This document shows positions 4,816 through 48,370 of a stretch of 64,000 nucleotides of DNA, in pieces. Location of the stretch: assembly GCA_002731275.1 (NCBI GenBank), contig PCBK01000093.1, positions 1-64,000 of the forward strand. Direction: 5' to 3'. Position 1 is the first letter of the stretch. The number at the start of each line of letters is the position of its first letter. This DNA comes from Deltaproteobacteria bacterium. Lineage in GTDB: Bacteria; Myxococcota_C; UBA6777. Under the pieces are notes generated by a model that was not told where the DNA came from, searched no databases, and saw only the letters and a program-made list of their open reading frames with translations. A program made the translations under genes and the position numbers.

Positions 4816-6135
4816 TTAGGGGGAAGGTGTCGCTTCGATTCTGTCGACGATAAGTGTGATGGGTTCGACCTCTTCATCGGCGATGACAAAGGTGTCACGT
4901 AGAGGTTGGCAGATATGCTGCATAGCTTCTTCGTCGTTGTAGTAGATGGTCATCAGTTGATCACCGGCTTCGACCTTATCACCGACTTTGCGGTTGAGGA
5001 TAAAGCCGACAGCTGGGTCAATTGGATCGGTGACTTTTTGTCGACCTGCACCCAACTCGACTGCGAGCCTTCCGATTTGTTCGCAATGGATGGATTGGAT
5101 GATACCGCTTTCTTGTGCGGAGAGTGCAATGATTCCTTTCGCTTTGGGAAAGAGGGAGTAATCTTCGAGGGCTCTCGGATCGCCACCTTGTGCAGCGGTG
5201 ATCTCTTGGAACTTGCGGAATGCTGCGCCTGAGTTGACGAGATCTTGAACGAGTTGCATCGCCTCTTCAAGGGAGTCTGCGGCTTTTCCGAGCAAGAGCA
5301 TTTCGGCGGCGAGTTGGAACGACAGCTCCGAGAGGTCATTTTGAACGCGGCCTTGTAGCACCTCACACGATTCGATCACTTCGAGGCTGTTGCCGATATG
5401 GGTGCCGAGTGGCTGGTTCATATCGGTGAGTAAGGCGACGACCTCTTTGCCCATTTGGGCGCCGATCGCGACAAGTGTGCGTGCGAGCATGGTGGCGAGT
5501 GTGAGGTCCTTCATGAAGGCGCCCGAGCCAAACTTGACGTCAAGTACGAGCCCATCGATGCCTTCTGCGAGCTTTTTACTCATGATGCTGGAGGCGATCA
5601 GAGGGATCGAGTCGACGGTCGCTGTGACATCCCGAAGCGCATAGAGTTTTCGGTCTGCAGGGACGATGTCACCGGTTTGTCCTGCGAGGACGACGCCACA
5701 GCTGTGGAGGACTTCGGAGAAGCGCTCTGCGCTGAGTCCGACATCAAAGCCTGGGATCGATTCGAGCTTGTCGAGTGTCCCACCTGTGTGTCCGAGGCCA
5801 CGTCCGCTGATCATCGGTACATAGACACCTGCTGCGGCGACGATGGGGGCGAGGATCAATGAGGTCTTGTCACCGACGCCTCCCGTCGAGTGTTTGTCTA
5901 CTTTGTAGGCCTCTATGTCCGAAAAGTCGAGTGTGTCGCCTGAGTATAGCATGGCTTTTGTCCACGCCATCAGCTCCTGATCGGAGAGCCCTTGAAAGTA
6001 GATCGCCATAGCCATCGCAGAGGCTTGGTAGTCAGGGATATCTCCGGTTGTGTATCCTTCAATAAAGAAGAGGATTTCTTCTTCACTGAGGCGTTTTCCG
6101 TCACGTTTTTTGCGTATGATTTCGTAAACTTGCAT
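4816..6135 (-). CDS. pdp: Pyrimidine-nucleoside (thymidine) phosphorylase
   Basis: 439-residue family member that converts thymidine, uridine or deoxyuridine plus phosphate to free base and sugar 1-phosphate. It shows the N-terminal helical domain, KHSTGGVGDKTSL at 81-93 (phosphate site), the family signature SGRGLGHTGGTLDKLESIPG, and a C-terminal barrel-hybrid domain ending in VxAGDQLxTIYxND. The KHSTGGVGDKTSL form is typical of both DeoA and Pdp; sequence alone does not tell thymidine-only from broad pyrimidine specificity, so the symbol is tentative. It starts 3 nt after deoB stops and lies 15 nt before punA, indicating one transcript. Confidence 0.93.
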   Translation of the reverse strand: MQVYEIIRKKRDGKRLSEEEILFFIEGYTTGDIPDYQASAMAMAIYFQGLSDQELMAWTKAMLYSGDTLDFSDIEAYKVDKHSTGGVGDKTSLILAPIVAAAGVYVPMISGRGLGHTGGTLDKLESIPGFDVGLSAERFSEVLHSCGVVLAGQTGDIVPADRKLYALRDVTATVDSIPLIASSIMSKKLAEGIDGLVLDVKFGSGAFMKDLTLATMLARTLVAIGAQMGKEVVALLTDMNQPLGTHIGNSLEVIESCEVLQGRVQNDLSELSFQLAAEMLLLGKAADSLEEAMQLVQDLVNSGAAFRKFQEITAAQGGDPRALEDYSLFPKAKGIIALSAQESGIIQSIHCEQIGRLAVELGAGRQKVTDPIDPAVGFILNRKVGDKVEAGDQLMTIYYNDEEAMQHICQPLRDTFVIADEEVEPITLIVDRIEATPSP

Positions 6136-38647: not shown

Positions 38648-39372
38648 GCATCCCATCCATCCGTCAGGGGAGCGAACTCTTCGAACCTTATCAGGTTGTC
38701 TTCGAGGATGATGCGTATCTGATCATCAACAAACCTCCGGCGCTACCTTCGACTGGGATGAAGATGTCCGATCCATATTGTCTTCAATCTATCCTGTGTG
38801 ATGACTATGGGCGGATGATCTGGGCTGTACATCAACTCGACGCTGACACTTCAGGGGTAAATATCTTTGTGATGCAAAAACAACTTGTTTCACAGGTGAA
38901 GGCGAGGATGGAGCTGCCCCAGACGAAGAAAACCTACCTGACACTCTGCCACGGACACCCCGAGCGCGAGATGTGGGTTGAATCCCCCATTGGCCCCACC
39001 TCTTGTCAGCGAGGGTGGGGTGTCACTGCTCATGGAAAATACGCAAAAACACATCTTGAAGTACTTGAGTCTGTTGGGGATGTTTCGTTGGTTCGGGTTG
39101 AGATTGTGACGGGGAGAACACATCAGATCAGGGTTCATCTCGCGCACATTGGGCACCCACTTGTCGGGGAAGATTGGTATATCGACGAAGTCTGTCCACT
39201 ACATCCAAGACAGGCATTGCACGCTTATGAGATCGCATTTGCTGATGGAGTGTCGCCTGAAGGATGGAGGGCACCACTGCGAGAGGACATGCGTGCGTTG
39301 CTTGTGACGTTGGGGTTTGAAGGTGAGTATGCGCGACAACTTGTGAGGGATGGAGTTATCGTTTCACTGTGA
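38644..39372 (+). CDS. RluA-family pseudouridine synthase
   Basis: 242 residues. Start is ATG 38644, overlapping the previous stop as ATGA. Core motifs: VFEDDAYLIINKPPALPST, HQLDADTSGVNIFV containing the catalytic Asp of the family motif HRLDxxTSG (Arg replaced by Gln), KKTYLTLCHG and TGRTHQIRVHLAHIGHPLVGEDWY. No S4 RNA-binding domain. The family isomerises uridine in rRNA or tRNA. The target cannot be assigned from the sequence; the Arg-to-Gln change is unusual. Overlaps the convergent Cys-rich lipoprotein gene by 17 bp. Confidence 0.9.
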   Translation: MSIPSIRQGSELFEPYQVVFEDDAYLIINKPPALPSTGMKMSDPYCLQSILCDDYGRMIWAVHQLDADTSGVNIFVMQKQLVSQVKARMELPQTKKTYLTLCHGHPEREMWVESPIGPTSCQRGWGVTAHGKYAKTHLEVLESVGDVSLVRVEIVTGRTHQIRVHLAHIGHPLVGEDWYIDEVCPLHPRQALHAYEIAFADGVSPEGWRAPLREDMRALLVTLGFEGEYARQLVRDGVIVSL

Positions 39373-41494
39373 AGGTGAGTTTGAGTCCTGAGACTTTTGT
39401 ATGGGTGAGGGTTTGTGTGCCAAAGGGTGAAAGGTCACCTGTCCAGATACCACATACTTCTGGTGAGTAGAGTGAACCGTCGTTATCGAGGACGGACAGT
39501 TTTGCGTTCTTGAGTTGGAAGGGGTCGATCCGTGAGAGGCTCCAGTTAAATGTCAACTCACTGTCACAAGAAGACGTAATCTCTTTGCTTTTGTAAGTTT
39601 GTCCATTGGGGAGAGTCAGCTCCAGGTAGATGTCTGGTTTTCCGATGGTGTCTGTACAGGCTGTGCCACAAGGGAAGTAGATCTTGGTGAACTCCATTTT
39701 GCGAAGGCATTTGTTGTTAATGCAGCCGTCTGAACAAGTCCCACAAGATTTTCCGCAACCATCCCCACCACACTCTCTTGTTGAGCAAAGAGAAGTGCAG
39801 CAGCTGCCGTTGATACATGTTTGGCTGCTGAGGCAAGTTCTTGTCGTGGACCAGTAACGACAGCCATTGGCGTCTTTCAGGCATGTTTGATAGCCTTGTC
39901 CAACGCATTGGCGTGCGTTTTCGGCGCATTCGTGTTTACAGACACAATTGCTCGATTGGCACTCTGAGTGTGGAGGGCAGATCCCGCAGTTTCCGCCACA
40001 TCCATCAGGGCCACACGTCTTCCCTTGGCAGGCAAGCGCGCAACAAGAACCGTCTTTACATGTCCCACCAGATTGGCATTGGTAGGTTTTGATCGAACGG
40101 CATCCCTGGCTATCGGGATCGCAGCGTTCGTAGGAGCTTGTGGAGGTACACTTTTTGTAGCCTTCCTGACATTTATGTTGGCAGGTGCACTTTCCACTTT
40201 GGCAGGTTGTGAGGCCGGTACATGTTCCGCAGCTACCGCCACAACCATCATCGCCACAGGTCTTGTTGTTGCAATTGGGGATACATTTGCAGGTCCCATC
40301 GACACAGGATGTGTCACTTGTGCAGGCGCAATCGGTCGGACATGTCGCACATGTCTCGCCTTCTTGTTTTTCACATTTTCTGTTTCCACATCTGTGTTTG
40401 CACTGACCTGTGCTGCACTCGTGTGTTTTGGGACACACACAGTCTTGTGGGCAGGTGCTACATGTTTCGCCTTTGTCGACATCACAGATCTGGTTACCAC
40501 ATTGCGTGCCACATCGACCTGAGGAGCAGAGTAATCCACTCTCACAAGCGCAGTCTTTGGCACATGTCGAGCAGTTCTCGCCGGCTGTAGCGTCACATTT
40601 TCCGTCACCACAATTGCTGCCACAGGCGCCGACTTTGCAGACTTGTTTGTTTGGGCAGGGACAATCAGAAGGGCATGTCGAGCAGTCTTCACCATAGGCG
40701 GTTTCGCAGCGACCGTTACCACACGTCCACTCACACCGACCTTCGACACATGTTTGTGATTGTCGACAGGTGCAGTCTTTGGTGCAGGTCGTGCAGTTCT
40801 CACCGAGGTTGGTATCACAAGTGCCATTGCCACATGTTCCTTGACACGATGAGCTTTGTGGATCGCATGATTGGCCGCCGGGGCAGGTACAGTCGGAGGG
40901 GCAACTCAAACAGTTTTCGTTCTCAGCGCCTTCACATGTTCCGTTGCCACAAGAGGCTTGCTCTTTACAACTGTTGTTGAGGCAGATTTGACCTTTGGTG
41001 CAGGCGCAATCTTGTGGGCAGATGGCACAGGTTTCGTTACTGTCACACGTTCCATTTCCACATTCATCGCGTTGTTTGCACGTCCCTGCCTGGCAATACT
41101 GTTCGGCAGGACATTGGCAATCTTGGGCGCAGGAGAGACAATCTTCGACCCCAATGTCACAACGTCCGTTTCCGCAAAGGTTTTCAGAACCTTCACCGCC
41201 GCCACCGCCATCTGTCGGGGTTGTTTCGGTCGTTTGGGTTTCACAAAGGCCTGCAATGCAAGTTTGTCCGTTGGGACAATGGGTTTCGTTGAGGCATTGT
41301 TGGCATTTATTGAGTGAACAGTGTGGTTTGGCTGCGGGGCACTGGCCATCTTGCTCACACTCTCCTTTTGGGGTGGAGGTGCAGGAGAACAGCACGAGGC
41401 TCAGTAGAATGAGACTTTTTGTGAGCCAAAGCAGCGGACGGTAGGTGACAGGAGCCGTTTGGGATGTATATCGAGAGGTCATCATCATAGCCAT
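39356..41494 (-). CDS. Cys-rich repeat lipoprotein
   Basis: 712 residues. Signal region ends with LVLFSC (Cys38), a plausible lipobox. After a Gly-rich linker come eight repeats of about 37 residues, each of the form CGNGxCD..GExCxTCxxDCxCxxxxxCxxGxC (eight Cys), then two longer units plus a shorter third, each built on CxxxxCGxDGCGGxCGxC. The final ~100 residues are a distinct beta-rich domain (MEFTKIYFPCGTACTDTIGKPDIYLELTL...ELTFNW...LSVLDNDGSLYS), C2-like in pattern. Probably a disulfide-stabilised surface rod ending in a binding domain; common in Myxococcota but uncharacterised. Divergent from the second Cys-rich lipoprotein. No strong ribosome site before the first ATG; internal Met codons 3-5 are alternatives. 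Confidence 0.85.
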   Translation of the reverse strand: MAMMMTSRYTSQTAPVTYRPLLWLTKSLILLSLVLFSCTSTPKGECEQDGQCPAAKPHCSLNKCQQCLNETHCPNGQTCIAGLCETQTTETTPTDGGGGGEGSENLCGNGRCDIGVEDCLSCAQDCQCPAEQYCQAGTCKQRDECGNGTCDSNETCAICPQDCACTKGQICLNNSCKEQASCGNGTCEGAENENCLSCPSDCTCPGGQSCDPQSSSCQGTCGNGTCDTNLGENCTTCTKDCTCRQSQTCVEGRCEWTCGNGRCETAYGEDCSTCPSDCPCPNKQVCKVGACGSNCGDGKCDATAGENCSTCAKDCACESGLLCSSGRCGTQCGNQICDVDKGETCSTCPQDCVCPKTHECSTGQCKHRCGNRKCEKQEGETCATCPTDCACTSDTSCVDGTCKCIPNCNNKTCGDDGCGGSCGTCTGLTTCQSGKCTCQHKCQEGYKKCTSTSSYERCDPDSQGCRSIKTYQCQSGGTCKDGSCCALACQGKTCGPDGCGGNCGICPPHSECQSSNCVCKHECAENARQCVGQGYQTCLKDANGCRYWSTTRTCLSSQTCINGSCCTSLCSTRECGGDGCGKSCGTCSDGCINNKCLRKMEFTKIYFPCGTACTDTIGKPDIYLELTLPNGQTYKSKEITSSCDSELTFNWSLSRIDPFQLKNAKLSVLDNDGSLYSPEVCGIWTGDLSPFGTQTLTHTKVSGLKLTFTVKR

Positions 41495-41802: not shown

Positions 41803-43710
41803 ATGAATCGACACCAAATCAAATTGTCTTTTTGTTTCTTCGCCTTGTTGGCGTTCGCCGGCATTTTTTCGAACTGTAGCCCTTCCACGACGATCGGCAA
41901 TCCCTGTGCCATTGATGGCGATTGCCAAGGTTCACTCTGTGTGAATGGCGTGTGTACTTCACAGCAAGGGGAGTTTACATCGAAGGATGGCGGGACTGTG
42001 TCAAACTGTCCCGGAGAATGTAAGTCCGCAGATGAGTGCCAGGGATGTCCTAACGGACGAACAGCTTGTATCGGTGGCGCATGTATCGTGCCAAGTGGAC
42101 TTTGTCCTTCAGCCTGCCAAAGTGATGGCGACTGTGGGAAGTGTCCGAACAATGCGACGGCCTGTCTCAATGGTGTTTGTTCTATTCCTCCAGCGGGAAC
42201 GTGTCCTGCGGCTTGCGCGACGGATGGTGATTGTGCCCAATGTCCAGAAAAAACAGCTTGTATCCGAAGGACGTGCGTTGTTCCTCCTACCGGAACGTGT
42301 CCTGCGAGCTGCCAGACAGACAAAGAGTGTGCGCAGTGTCCTGGAAACCAGACAACTTGTGTACAAGGTGTCTGCCAAGGACCTGCCATTTGTCCTGATA
42401 AGTGTACAACATCCGATCAGTGTGTTGGGTGTCCTGGTGGACGAACCCAATGTATCGAAAACACATGTCAAGATGGCGGGGGGAATGTATGTCCAGCGCG
42501 ATGTCAATCTGATAGAGATTGTGCGGTTTGTCCGGCAGACAAACGTTCTTGCCAAAATGGTCAGTGTGGTGGAGGGTCTACTGGTTCTTGTCCCCGTACT
42601 TGTAAAACCAGCGCAGATTGTGCCAACTGTGGTGATCGCAACATCTGTCGGGACTTTGGTGTCGTCTCTTCTTGTGTAAGCAAAGACTTTTGTCCTCCTG
42701 CCTGCCGCGAAGATGCTGATTGTAACACCTGTACAGGCGGTCGTAACAAGTGTATCAACAACCAGTGCAACACCGCAGGAACTCCTGTGTGCCCCAGAAA
42801 CTGCCAGTCTGACGCTGATTGTAGTGGATGTCAAAATGGGCGGACTTCTTGCCAGGATTCGAGTCTCGGAAAAGTTTGTGTGCCCCCCAACTTCTGTCCT
42901 CCTGCATGTCAGGCAGATCTCGACTGTGTGAATTGTACAGGTGGTCGCACAACCTGTCGAAACTTCCAATGTACAACAGGTGGTAGCACTGGCCAGTGTC
43001 CTCGAAGATGCCGCACCAACGCCGATTGCGCACAATGTCCTAACGGTCAAACAAGCTGTCAAAACAACCAATGTACAACTGGTGGTAGCACCGGCCAATG
43101 TCCTCGCACATGTAACACTAACGCCGATTGTGCCAATTGTTCAAATAACCGAACAACCTGCCAAAACTCCAGCCTCGGACGTGTTTGTGCTCCTGCAAAC
43201 TTCTGTCCTCCTGCATGTCAGGCAGATCTCGACTGTGCAAATTGTACGGGTGGTCGCACAACTTGTCGAAACTTCCAATGTACAACAGGCGGAACCACGA
43301 GTTGCCCAGCTGTTTGTACCAGTGACAATGACTGTGCACAGTGTTCAAATGGTCGGACTTCCTGCCAGAATGGACAATGTTCTGCGACCAACATGTGTCC
43401 ACGTACCTGCCAAAGCGACTCCGATTGTGCACAGTGTCCAAATGGCCGCACCTCCTGCCAAAACTTTGGGGCTATCGCTGTATGTGGTACGGGTGGGACA
43501 AGCACCTGTCCTGCTGCATGTCGTACAAACATCGATTGTGCGCAGTGTCCGAATGGCCGCACAAGCTGTCAGAACAACCAGTGTACAACGGGCGGTAGCA
43601 CCGGCCAATGCCCCACAACATGTAGCAGCAACACGGACTGTTTACAGTGTACAGGCAAACCCCTCTGTAAAACCCAACCCAACGGTACGGCTGTCTGTTC
43701 ATCCCTCTAA
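41803..43710 (+). CDS. Lipoprotein of 17 six-Cys repeats
   Basis: 635 residues. Signal region ends IFSNC (Cys25), an imperfect lipobox. After an opening CAIDGDCQGSLCVNGVC module come 17 repeats of about 34 residues with the pattern CPxxCxxxxDCxxCxxxxxxCxxxxC, separated by Gly/Thr/Ser linkers such as TTGGSTGQ. Each has six Cys, expected to pair within the unit, giving a rigid extended surface rod. Repeats 9-10 and 12-13 are nearly identical at the DNA level, so the array grew by recent duplication. No catalytic domain is visible and the protein ends within the last repeat. GGAG lies about 9 nt before the ATG. Divergent from the Cys-rich lipoprotein at 39356. Confidence 0.85.
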   Translation: MNRHQIKLSFCFFALLAFAGIFSNCSPSTTIGNPCAIDGDCQGSLCVNGVCTSQQGEFTSKDGGTVSNCPGECKSADECQGCPNGRTACIGGACIVPSGLCPSACQSDGDCGKCPNNATACLNGVCSIPPAGTCPAACATDGDCAQCPEKTACIRRTCVVPPTGTCPASCQTDKECAQCPGNQTTCVQGVCQGPAICPDKCTTSDQCVGCPGGRTQCIENTCQDGGGNVCPARCQSDRDCAVCPADKRSCQNGQCGGGSTGSCPRTCKTSADCANCGDRNICRDFGVVSSCVSKDFCPPACREDADCNTCTGGRNKCINNQCNTAGTPVCPRNCQSDADCSGCQNGRTSCQDSSLGKVCVPPNFCPPACQADLDCVNCTGGRTTCRNFQCTTGGSTGQCPRRCRTNADCAQCPNGQTSCQNNQCTTGGSTGQCPRTCNTNADCANCSNNRTTCQNSSLGRVCAPANFCPPACQADLDCANCTGGRTTCRNFQCTTGGTTSCPAVCTSDNDCAQCSNGRTSCQNGQCSATNMCPRTCQSDSDCAQCPNGRTSCQNFGAIAVCGTGGTSTCPAACRTNIDCAQCPNGRTSCQNNQCTTGGSTGQCPTTCSSNTDCLQCTGKPLCKTQPNGTAVCSSL

Positions 43711-43744
43711 CCCTCTCGAATGTTGATCCGGCAGACGCAACTGC

Positions 43745-43922
43745 AACATACGCCTCAACAAACTCACCACCCTGTCACTTCGTGACATCCCTCCTCTCAA
43801 GCCTTTCGAGAGGAGGGACCATTTATCCGATATGTACGTAGGTTGAGGTCGGACACAAGGCCCGACCCTACTGAATCCAACCGATATACACGAAGATTTT
43901 TCGTTTGTATCGCGATATATCG
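43745..43922 (-). repeat. Inverted copy of the left-end repeat block
   Basis: Read on the minus strand, this segment aligns with positions 1 to about 185: ATCGCGATACAAACGAAAAA, the GTCGGGC..GTCCGAC hairpin, TATCGG, the CCCTCCTCTC/GAGAGGAGGG hairpin and GTTTGTTGAGGC, with scattered mismatches. The two blocks are inverted relative to each other and bracket about 43 kb. Confidence 0.8.
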
Positions 43923-44002
43923 TTTGGCTCGTTTCGAGGGCGGGCCTTCAGACCTGCCCAATTCTGAACGATGCGAGGCCGTAGGCATCGCGTACGCTCT
44001 CT

Positions 44003-44040
44003 ATAGGCCCAGGTTTTAACTTGGGTGCATGGCCATTCAT
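44003..44040 (+). repeat. Direct repeat copy 2 (partner at 729-766)
   Basis: Shares GGCCCAGGTTTT and ATGGCCATTC with positions 729-766 in the same orientation, with a handful of mismatches. Its inner arms form a CCCAGG..CTTGGGT hairpin. Confidence 0.7.
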
Positions 44041-44048
44041 GTCCTGTT

Positions 44049-44110
44049 CACCATCCATATGTGGTTGTGCGCGTATCCTGAACACCGCTCATATGTAGTT
44101 GTGTTCGTAT
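44049..44110 (+). repeat. Pair of 28-bp direct repeats
   Basis: 44049-44076 and 44083-44110 share CACC..CATATGTnGTTGTG..CGTAT (23 of 28 positions by eye). Each contains the palindrome CATATG. Confidence 0.6.
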
Positions 44111-44194
44111 TTGTTTGGTGTGTCTTGGTGGATGGTTTTCGAGAGCGGGAACATGGGTTGAATCATTGGATAGAGGGATTCGTTTGGCTGGTAT

Positions 44195-44214
44195 CACCGG
44201 GTTTAAACCCGGTG
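44195..44214. repeat. Perfect 20-bp palindrome
   Basis: CACCGGGTTTAAACCCGGTG reads identically on both strands. No T tract follows, so it is not a terminator. Confidence 0.8.
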
Positions 44215-44263
44215 CTATAGATAAGGTACGCTCGCCTCAAGGCTTCGCATTGATCTGAATTGC

Positions 44264-44284
44264 GGTGGGACTCAAAGTCCCACC
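44264..44284. repeat. Short hairpin, 9-bp stem
   Basis: GGTGGGACT (44264-44272) pairs with AGTCCCACC (44276-44284) around a CAA loop. Confidence 0.75.
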
Positions 44285-44365
44285 TCAACACATTACACGC
44301 GGTCATACACCAAACCCGAATCTATGGGGTTTTTTACTTCTTGGGACAATCGGTGCCAAATCTCT

Positions 44366-44867
44366 CTATAGGCGTTCTTTGGTAACTATAGACGTTCTTT
44401 TGGTAACTATAGGCGTGCTTTTGGTAACTATAGGCGTTCTTTGTCAGCTATAGGCGTGCTTTTGGTAACTATAGGCGTTCTTTTGTCAGTTATAGGCGTT
44501 CTTTTGGTAACTATGGGCGTCCTTTTTGGTAACGATAGGCGTTCTTTTGAAGCTATAGGAGTCCTTTTGGTAACTATAGACGCTCTTTTGCCAGCTATAG
44601 GCATCAAAATGCAAACTATAGACGCTCTTTTGGGAACGATAGGCGTTCTTTTGCCAGCTATAGGCGTCCTTTTGGTAACTGTAGGCGTTCTTTTGCCAGC
44701 TATAGGCGTCCTTTTGGTAACTATAGACGCTCTTTTGGGAACGATATGCGTTCATTTGGGAACGATATGCGTTCATTTGGTAACGATAGGCATCAAAATG
44801 CAAACGATAGGCGTTCCTTCAGGAGCTATAGGCGTCAAAATGCAAACGATAGGCACCAAGTTCTGTG
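44366..44867. repeat. Tandem array of 23 units with 21-bp period
   Basis: Units begin with CTATAGGCGT or CGATAGGCGT and continue in one of four ways: TCTTTTGGTAA, a TTTTGCCAG or GTCAG form, CTCTTTTGGGAA, or TCAAAATGCAAA. Nineteen of 23 units are exactly 21 bp; those at 44366, 44428 and 44533 are 20 bp and the one at 44511 is 22 bp. A degenerate 24th unit starts at 44847. Most units hold the palindrome CTATAG. There are no unique spacers, so it is not CRISPR. Length-variant units break any reading frame. Confidence 0.92.
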
Positions 44868-45241
44868 CGAGAGATGCACTCTCCACAGCAATAGGGGGCG
44901 GTGGGTTGGCGGTCGGAATGGGTACGTTGTTTGGGGAGGCTTTGGAGGCAGGTCAACACAAATGGGTTGAACAATATGTCGTTTGCTACGGAAAATCAAC
45001 ATTATGTAGCATACTCCAACTTGTATCTTGTTGGGTTTGATGCAGATCAATTCGTTTGTTTTTTTGGAGGGGAGTTTGCGGAGTGGACTTTCTTTTGCGA
45101 CAAGATCCGCTACAATGCGAACGCATCTGATCGTTGAAGAGGTCACAACTTCCCTCTTTTCCTCGTTTTGTTCGTCTTGTGGACGGTTTTGTTTGTCAAC
45201 ACAAGACAAGTCGATCGTCCTCAAAGAGGAGTCCTGTAAGT

Positions 45242-48200
45242 ATGTTTCGAGCGATATTCTCGGTTCTTTCTGTGTTGTGTGGGGTGGGATTGTTGTTTGT
45301 GCCATCTCCTTTTTGGTGGCTCGGTGTCGGCTGTTTGTTTGGCGGCGGTGCGTGGATTGCACACGATCGATGGCTGGATTGGCATGAGAACCCTATATGG
45401 GAAGAGCAGGTCGAGTGGTGGTTTTTGAAGGGAAAACGGCGCGTCTTATTTGCCGATCTCTTCTGTCTTTTGATCATTTTGGGGCTCGCGGTTATTTTGC
45501 TCGGTGAGTCCTTCATTGGTTTGCGCCCCATCGATCATGATCACGTCGTCCACTACGCGAAAGCCTGGCGTTTGAAAGACGACTTTTTATGGCAAGGTCG
45601 TTTGCTCGGTTGGAGTCACGACTGGTTTGCGGGATATCCGGCTCAATATTTGTATCCATTTGGTGCTGATCTGTGGATTATTTTGTTCCACACACTCGGT
45701 CTGGGGCTGTGGTCTTTTGGACAGGCATACGCGTTGTCCTTTGGCTTCTTTTGGTTCTTGATCGGGGCGTCGTTGTTCGCACTCTCACGTCAGATGTTCG
45801 ACTGGAAGGTCTCCTTGCTCGCGGCGCTCTTGTGGATGACAGATCCCGGTGCGTATCGAATGGGTGGCTGGGTGTTCACAGCTGTGTGGGGAGTGTGGCC
45901 ACAAGTCCTCTCTGTTGTGTGGGCGACCTTTGCGCTCGCACAGCTCCCCAAACTCGTCGAGGGCCGAGAGCCAAAGGCCATCGGGTGGTTTGGTTTTTGG
46001 ATGGGTTGTGCGCTGCTCACGCACCCAATGCAGCTGCTCAATTTCGCGATGTTGCTCCCTGTGATCGTCTTTGCGTACTGGCTGCTCAAGGGCTTTGATC
46101 GTTGGTTGGTCTCGCTCTCTCGTTTGTTCGCCGGGTACGCGCTCGGTGGGATGATTGGGGCGTTGTGGTTTGTGCCGTTTTACACCTCGAAGTCGTTCGC
46201 ACAATCCTATGGAGCCCCCTGGTGGACGGCCTCTCGTATTGGTGAGAGCTTTTACCAACTCGATCTCTTCACGGGCACGTGGACGCTCGTGACCGCGACA
46301 GGCTTTGTTGGACTCGTCGCGATGCTCTTCTCACGGCGCTTTCTTCCTGTGTGTCTCGCGTTCTTTTCGCTCTTTGTACTCCTCACGGGCTCCGTCACGT
46401 TTTCACAAGAATTCCATCTCCTCGATCTGATCAAGTCATTTCAACACGTCCAATTCCAGCGCTTCTCCATCTTGATGAAGCCCTACCTGTTTATCGCCAG
46501 CGCATACGTTCTGGTCGCAGGCTTTACATCACTCTCCAAATTACAGAGAAAAAGCGAAGCCTTACACCCTCCACCGCCCGCCGAGTTGCCAGAGCCTGTT
46601 ACCGAGCTGACTGAGACCCCAAAAGACATTGAAGCAGACGACACCAAGGTCTCGGAGCCCAAAGCCTCCGATGAACCCCCTGAGGAGGAGAGCGAAAAAG
46701 ACGCCGTTGATGTCGAACACGATTCGGATGTTGCTGATGTCGATGAGGACAAAGCCACCGAGACAAAGGAGGAGACCTCTTCACAGCCTGTCGAAGAGCC
46801 TCCCGCCCACACGAGTGAGGCACCTGTTGGTGGGGGGTTATACGGTGTGACCTCATGGCGTACGAAGCCTGTGGGGTTGTACGTCTTGATGTTCGCCGTT
46901 GGTTGTATGATCGCGCCGATGTTGACGTCTTTCTTTATCCAATTTGGCAAACGTCACTTCCAGAGGAACTTGACTTACGTTCGTAAAGACCGATTTGAGC
47001 AAGATAAAAAGCGGTTTGTACAGTGGGCCAAGAAGGCATTCGCGAAGGAGAAGCATTTCTTTCGTCTCGCCTTGTCCTTTGGCTATCACGAGCACTCATT
47101 CTTCGACTTGGGGCCTCGTTTACGTGTGCCTATCTATAAAATAGGCTTCACTCCAGCAGCCATTTACAAGTACAAGATGGAGACCAAGAGTCGCGCGCTC
47201 TTCCGTACCCTGAATATCAAATATGTCCTCTCAACACATCGGATGTATGGACGTGATTACAAGACCGCCAAGCAATTTGGGAGTCTCTATCTCAGCAAAT
47301 TCCTGCCTTACAAACCACAACCCTTCACGGTCAAAGGCAAGGGCAAAGTGGTCCTTTCACATTGGGGACGAGAGGAGATCCGTTTGAAGGCGGATGCTGC
47401 GGCACAAGGTGAGCTTATGCTGCATGTCTCTGCGTTCTCTCGGTGGCACGCGACACACAATGGTAAGTCGATCCCGATCAAGGTCGTTCCTCTCAAAGGT
47501 ACCGAGAAGACAGGGTTTATGCAGGTCACTCTTAAGCCCGGCACGTATGTCTTTTCATTCCGTCGCAGTGGGTTGGATTGGCTCAGTGGGATTGTGTTCT
47601 TTATAGGGCTGTTTTGTATCGGATATCTGGTCTTTGTGCATCAAAAACTCGACGAGTCTGTTGGTGTCAAGCGAAGGGTGATGTCCTTTGTGAATGGGTT
47701 TGTCGGGCTACAGGAGCGTACCCGGGGGATGCAAAGGCTGTTGTCTTTCACTGTCCTTGGTGGGGCGCTCGGTATTCTCGCAGTCCTCGCGCTTTGGTCG
47801 CCTGCTGCGTTAGGAGACTTGCCTATTGCGCGCAAGGATATCGAGAAGATGACCTTCGACTTTGGTGAACGGTTGCGATTTGGGAAGGCGTGGATTGGGC
47901 CTGCACATCGGAAGGGTAAGCCATGCCGGAGCGCATTCTCTCGTCATCACTGTGGGCACGCACGTTGGCACGTGATCGAGATGAGGCGTTTGGAGTTCGA
48001 GAAGCAATCGTTTAAACGCTGTATCTGGATCCACCCACAGCCGGGTGTGGCCAAGACATTGTCCTTTTCTGGTGTTCGAGCGGGTGATGCGATTGTCGGC
48101 TTCTACGGGATTACAGCGTCCGGGAAGATGTTTGGTAGCCACCCAGTCTTCCTGGAAGTCACGATTGATGGTGCCGTCGCGAAGAAGGTGAGCACACCAC

Positions 48201-48370
48201 AAGACGCCAAAACATATCCACTCGTGGTACCCATTCCAAAGGACAAAAAAGGAAAACCTGTCGACATTCAATTCTCTGTCTCCGCACCGAGTATTGGGAG
48301 AAGACACTTCTGTTTTATGGCCCAGATGGTCAAACTCAAAGACGACGTGAAGCTGCAAAAAGGGAAGTGA
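45242..48370 (+). CDS. Large GT-C-like polytopic membrane protein
   Basis: About 1042 residues. Two N-terminal helices, then a polytopic region (about 50-470) with roughly ten transmembrane segments and an early luminal DHDHVVHYAKAWRLK loop, the type of acidic first-loop motif seen in GT-C glycosyltransferases and related 6-pyruvoyl-tetrahydropterin-synthase-related membrane proteins. A Pro/Glu/Asp-rich cytoplasmic-type insert (about 438-540) precedes another helix and a large extracytoplasmic domain with a jelly-roll-like segment (ELMLHVSAFSRWHATHNGKSIPIKV), two more helices and a final beta domain. Probably transfers sugars from a lipid carrier in the envelope; not proven. ATG 45242 has GAGGAG about 11 nt upstream. 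Followed after 2 nt by the DUF952 gene. Confidence 0.78.
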   Translation: MFRAIFSVLSVLCGVGLLFVPSPFWWLGVGCLFGGGAWIAHDRWLDWHENPIWEEQVEWWFLKGKRRVLFADLFCLLIILGLAVILLGESFIGLRPIDHDHVVHYAKAWRLKDDFLWQGRLLGWSHDWFAGYPAQYLYPFGADLWIILFHTLGLGLWSFGQAYALSFGFFWFLIGASLFALSRQMFDWKVSLLAALLWMTDPGAYRMGGWVFTAVWGVWPQVLSVVWATFALAQLPKLVEGREPKAIGWFGFWMGCALLTHPMQLLNFAMLLPVIVFAYWLLKGFDRWLVSLSRLFAGYALGGMIGALWFVPFYTSKSFAQSYGAPWWTASRIGESFYQLDLFTGTWTLVTATGFVGLVAMLFSRRFLPVCLAFFSLFVLLTGSVTFSQEFHLLDLIKSFQHVQFQRFSILMKPYLFIASAYVLVAGFTSLSKLQRKSEALHPPPPAELPEPVTELTETPKDIEADDTKVSEPKASDEPPEEESEKDAVDVEHDSDVADVDEDKATETKEETSSQPVEEPPAHTSEAPVGGGLYGVTSWRTKPVGLYVLMFAVGCMIAPMLTSFFIQFGKRHFQRNLTYVRKDRFEQDKKRFVQWAKKAFAKEKHFFRLALSFGYHEHSFFDLGPRLRVPIYKIGFTPAAIYKYKMETKSRALFRTLNIKYVLSTHRMYGRDYKTAKQFGSLYLSKFLPYKPQPFTVKGKGKVVLSHWGREEIRLKADAAAQGELMLHVSAFSRWHATHNGKSIPIKVVPLKGTEKTGFMQVTLKPGTYVFSFRRSGLDWLSGIVFFIGLFCIGYLVFVHQKLDESVGVKRRVMSFVNGFVGLQERTRGMQRLLSFTVLGGALGILAVLALWSPAALGDLPIARKDIEKMTFDFGERLRFGKAWIGPAHRKGKPCRSAFSRHHCGHARWHVIEMRRLEFEKQSFKRCIWIHPQPGVAKTLSFSGVRAGDAIVGFYGITASGKMFGSHPVFLEVTIDGAVAKKVSTPQDAKTYPLVVPIPKDKKGKPVDIQFSVSAPSIGRRHFCFMAQMVKLKDDVKLQKGK

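Follow-up and report, generated by a model that had tools for sequence, protein, structure and literature searches.

A CTATAG tandem array in the repeat-rich genome of an uncultured bacterium is probably an ordinary minisatellite confined to one locus

The CTATAG array looks like an ordinary locus-specific minisatellite, one of many tandem arrays in the repeat-rich genome of an uncultured bacterium, assembled as 10.75 Mb in 200 contigs. It was found in a window of 64,000 nucleotides (positions 1 to 64000 of contig C82), where it occupies the spacer between two genes on the positive strand (Table 1). Very probably, the array is intergenic repetitive DNA that grew at this one locus by slippage or unequal recombination and has no detectable dedicated function. 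A reading as a binding platform for proteins, proposed in a first-pass annotation of the window, is not supported.

Segmentation resolves the array into 23 head-to-tail units with no spacers between them, of which 19 are 21 bp, three are 20 bp and one is 22 bp in length, bearing out the initial description of the locus; from position 44553 onward all units are exactly 21 bp. TRF agrees, with a score of 444 at period 21 and 517 at period 105. With at most one mismatch allowed, the window contains 17 occurrences of the unit core CTATAGGCGT, all of them within the array, compared with an expectation of 1.05, and none of 100 shuffles reached this count. The first-pass annotation had placed CTATAG or CGATAG in all units, which holds for 18 of the 23 (14 with CTATAG and four with CGATAG), whereas the remaining five carry TTATAG, CTATGG, CTGTAG or, in two cases, CGATAT; CGATAG, moreover, is non-palindromic. 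Head-to-tail, spacer-free repetition of a unit within about 10-60 bp, as seen by both TRF and segmentation, is that of a minisatellite (VNTR). It is not that of a CRISPR array, since unique spacers are absent and the units are diverged.

Table 1. Positions and supporting evidence for the array and the features around it (window coordinates).
Feature	Coordinates	Strand	Evidence
Cys-rich repeat protein, 635 aa, lipoprotein-like start, upstream of the array	41803..43710	+	ORF; no Pfam match
Dispersed REPIN/MITE-like element (one intergenic copy) with two hairpin arms and CTATAG ends	43940..44300	.	BLAST; core copies; inverted repeats
Tandem array, consensus CTATAGGCGTTCTTTTGGTAA	44366..44846	.	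Segmentation; TRF period 21 and 105; 42-bp/105-bp higher-order similarity
Two successive 42-bp dimers, clearest block duplication	44637..44720	.	Segmentation and unit-tree analysis
Decayed 24th unit on the 3' side of the array; match limited to CGATAGGC	44847..44867	.	Segmentation
Predicted membrane protein, 1042 aa, downstream of the array	45242..48370	+	ORF; weak sub-cutoff match to PF10131 (PTPS_related membrane protein)

The order of the units points to how the array grew. Compared with shuffled unit order, units are more alike at a distance of two units, or 42 bp (P = 0.002), and to a weaker degree at five units, or 105 bp (P = 0.02), whereas neighbouring units are not; the 42-bp dimer is therefore taken to have been a unit of expansion. 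The dimers at 44637-44678 and 44679-44720, cited in the first-pass annotation as an example of higher-order repeats, differ at 2 of 42 positions, so that this part of the earlier description is upheld. Divergence from the consensus increases toward the 3' edge of the array. Together, the higher-order arrangement and the 3' divergence are what successive block duplications, the mode of growth of a minisatellite (VNTR), leave behind.

Other arrays of the same genome provide a view of this process. A census covering a sample of 2.24 Mb, limited to predicted intergenic DNA and partly centred on REPIN-like loci, contains 40 intergenic tandem arrays, compared with 0 in block-shuffled sequence; the units of these sister arrays are mostly unrelated between loci, some having partial relatives elsewhere. 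Two of them are present in two versions that differ in length. At the L099 array, 3,231 bp of C8 correspond to 3,189 bp of C191, with one 42-bp gap located within the array, and the L098 array is 168 bp (4 x 42) shorter on C192 than on C178; the flanks of both pairs are about 98.8-99.9% identical. These second haplotypes apparently derive from a co-occurring strain, as C191 and C192 are near-duplicates of parts of C8 and C178 and the assembly appears to contain more than one strain. Mixed strains may lie behind part of the 5.5% contamination estimate. There is a slight possibility that assembly collapse of one version produced the length difference in either pair.

Given its 42-bp order, the CTATAG array most likely formed in the same way as these two haplotype-variable arrays, and we infer that the process seen there, where copy number has changed, also gave rise to the CTATAG array and still alters its number of units, the assembly containing a single allele of it. 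A 21-bp segment would first have been duplicated head to tail, followed by repeated block duplication, mainly of the 42-bp dimer and possibly of a 105-bp five-unit block, by means of replication slippage or unequal recombination, with point mutations and rare 1-bp indels diversifying the units. The first-pass annotation had offered a phase-variable minisatellite as its second reading. The minisatellite is retained in view of the block duplications, the roughly 40 arrays in 2.24 Mb and the haplotype differences by whole units, whereas phase variation of the gene at 45242 is not, since some 375 bp separate the array from the start of that gene and is represented by one allele.

Palindromes recur at several other intergenic loci sampled from this genome. 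The 42-bp intergenic array of L098 (10345-10729, corresponding to C178:190245-190629) has palindromic units (CTTTTGCACACAAAAG, CTTTCACACATGAAAG) with paired changes in their stems, from T-A to C-G. A periodicity of about 42 bp is also present at L105 (16092-16328) and L032 (8666-8835), with successive palindromes that vary in sequence yet keep their pairing (TCGCTGTTGACAGCGA and GCTTCACGAAGC; GGCGTTTCCCACTTTGGGAAACGC). The L099 array (5240-5709, on C8) is a 21/42-bp array with the core CACAAGCTCC and a variable tail, and inverted copies of GGAGCTTGTGC lie upstream of it at similar spacing.

The CTATAG array itself is confined to one locus. A search of the whole genome for the unit, the check proposed in the first-pass annotation, returned no second copy or allele in the 10.75-Mb assembly, and a degenerate unit pattern gave merely scattered near-matches outside the array. 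No match to the array was found in any of 59 other genomes, a set including four of the same family and none of the same genus. Likewise, a two-unit pattern was not found in collections of genome contigs and viral contigs, and blastn of the array against plasmids and phages gave no match; with no match in viral contigs, plasmids or phages, an origin of the array from a plasmid or phage is rejected. The first-pass annotation had regarded absence from other strains, with no copy elsewhere, as the result that would speak against its proposal, and the searches come close to that result, the comparison extending to same-family and not to same-genus genomes.

The neighbourhood of the array is chromosomal in character, with Pfam matches in the window to dapA, dapB, nucleoside phosphorylase and other genes of a similar chromosomal kind. 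The predicted membrane protein downstream has relatives with 28-43% identity in two same-family genomes (G001 and G003) and none in a scan of the genome-contig collection; no such array lies beside the copies examined in G001 and G003. The upstream gene forms an adjacent divergent pair with one at 39356-41494 on the negative strand, both encoding Cys-rich repeat proteins with lipoprotein-like starts and no Pfam match, the repeats being CGNGTCD and CQSDxDCxxCPNGRTxC-like.

The dispersed element upstream, separated from the array by about 66 bp, has 51 BLAST matches in its own genome. Its core, GGGTTTAAACCCGGTGCTATAGATA, is present in 41 copies there, allowing at most three mismatches, and was not found in the same-family genomes G001 to G003. 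Many copies of the element are located at contig ends, as expected because repeats break assembly. The genome has four matches to Y1 (IS200-like/RAYT-type) transposases, and REPIN-like is therefore a reasonable label for the element. The 12-mer CTCTCTATAGGC is common to the first unit of the array and the REPIN-like arm at 43996, and of the six CTCTATAGGC sites that the sample contains beyond the array, five fall within REPIN-like arms. Based on that one shared 12-mer, the adjoining REPIN/MITE-like element may have seeded the array. The array is not tightly enclosed by inverted repeats; the only pair is 15 nt long and 87% identical, its arms lying at 44246 and 45040.

The nearest system in the literature is BrickBuilt of Porphyromonas gingivalis, which consists of intergenic, spacer-free, MITE-associated 23-nt units in up to 22.8 copies; the units are imperfect, with a more variable latter half and a strain-dependent copy number, and recur, within a single MITE that has a leader and tail, at 19 loci (PMC4596501). 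The CTATAG array is similarly intergenic, spacer-free, imperfect and associated with a miniature inverted-repeat element, however it is present at a single locus and adjoins a dispersed element on one side, rather than sitting inside one between a leader and tail. Bacterial intergenic VNTRs or minisatellites also serve as MLVA typing loci that change by whole units (for example PMC1488860, PMC1479350). Like those loci, the arrays described here are locus-specific, and sister arrays vary by whole steps of 42 bp; a difference is that the step at the two sister arrays is a 42-bp dimer.

Plain slippage does not predict the excess of exact 21- and 42-bp periods among the arrays of this genome. The best period is exactly 21 or 42 bp in 12 arrays and 20, 22, 41 or 43 bp in seven, an excess with a binomial P of about 0.007, or 0.014 without the CTATAG array, in a post hoc test where some of the 12 arrays are weak. 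Under strict masking, autocorrelation of intergenic DNA is strongest at lag 42 (17 regions) and moderate at lag 21 (10); coding sequence that had escaped masking probably raised the initial peak at lag 21. The excess is suggestive and unexplained. There is a small chance that it reflects a genome-wide class of arrays in which the units are unrelated and the period is held at two or four DNA turns, the spacing itself being selected or produced; with the same reserve, phased bending, supercoil or nucleoid organisation and a whole-turn duplication mechanism are candidate causes.

The preference for 21- and 42-bp periods and the 21-bp spacing maintained in most units would also suit a helically phased platform, in which each unit of two turns presents one site on the same face for cooperative protein binding, modelled on plasmid iterons, partition sites or nucleoid-protein sites. 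This reading, which the first-pass annotation had offered with segregation, nucleoid or conjugation functions in view, is highly improbable. Given that the units of sister arrays are mostly unrelated, one protein cannot read all arrays by sequence, and the CTATAG unit forms one array in the genome and none in the same-family genomes. Although the unit has two invariant columns (4 and 20) and six nearly invariant ones (1, 3, 5, 8, 16 and 17), the approximately 34 changes inferred on a neighbour-joining tree of the units are distributed evenly over the 21 columns (chi2 22.8, 20 df), in a test whose power is low at this number of changes. The predicted curvature of the array ranks near the 97th percentile for the window, however 21% of arrays with permuted columns reach the same curvature under the same model, which uses wedge parameters from the literature, and intrinsic curvature is therefore modest and not special among sequences with a 21-bp period. 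Genome-wide, CTATAG is neither avoided nor enriched (110 observed, 117 expected), a count that also rejects a cluster of restriction or methylation sites.

Plasmid iterons are direct repeats of about 17-22 bp bound by Rep proteins, usually few in number and located beside a rep gene and an AT-rich melting region. The CTATAG array shares with them direct repeats of about two helical turns, but differs in its 23 diverged units, its chromosomal setting and the rep gene, which was not found. No Rep, Par or relaxase gene was detected among the 29 window ORFs scanned with Pfam, leaving the array without the neighbours and the plasmid context of an iteron or parC-like partition site. The even distribution of changes, the chromosomal neighbourhood without such genes and the single copy thus argue against the proposed platform.

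The position of the array between co-directional genes, upstream of 45242, would allow it to be a structured or regulatory RNA array, or the 5' leader or promoter region of that gene, phase-variable via unit number; the minisatellite-bearing BrickBuilt of P. gingivalis has bidirectional promoters (PMC4596501). This is quite unlikely. The fold energy of the array is no better than that of shuffles on either strand (z -0.2 and -0.7) and an Rfam search of the array gave no match, and on these grounds a structured RNA is rejected. An array of promoters is rejected as well, as no sigma-70-like site was found in 43650-45300, and the distance to 45242 is probably too great for changes in unit number to alter its promoter spacer.

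As 21 bp correspond to seven codons, the array could in principle be a gene, decayed or cryptic, that encodes a heptad-repeat protein, but this is highly improbable: one frame on the positive strand (IGVLLVT-like) and one on the negative strand (YQKNAYS-like) stay mostly open across the last 14 units, from 44553, ORFs of 199 aa (+) and 105 aa (-) run through the array, and the codon score of the minus ORF is positive, however the 20- and 22-bp units interrupt both frames in the upstream part, the 199-aa ORF has no Pfam match, and an excess of changes at third codon positions is absent in either frame, with changes by column modulo 3 numbering 15/10/9 and codon position 2 forming the largest class in both (15 versus 10 and 9, frames assigned by hand). 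A coding heptad-repeat protein is rejected on the broken frames and the changes away from third positions, and the frame-breaking units, the codon pattern and the lack of a Pfam match for the positive-strand ORF fit a non-coding minisatellite (VNTR). The earlier statement that no conserved reading frame is present thus applies to the upstream units and needs qualifying for those from 44553.

If the reading of the CTATAG array as an ordinary minisatellite is true, the array offers a candidate locus for typing strains of a poorly sampled lineage, and helical phasing that looks perfect can come from repeat expansion alone. If the 21/42-bp excess and the exact 42-bp haplotype steps were confirmed genome-wide, the length of the duplication step would be tied to the DNA helix.
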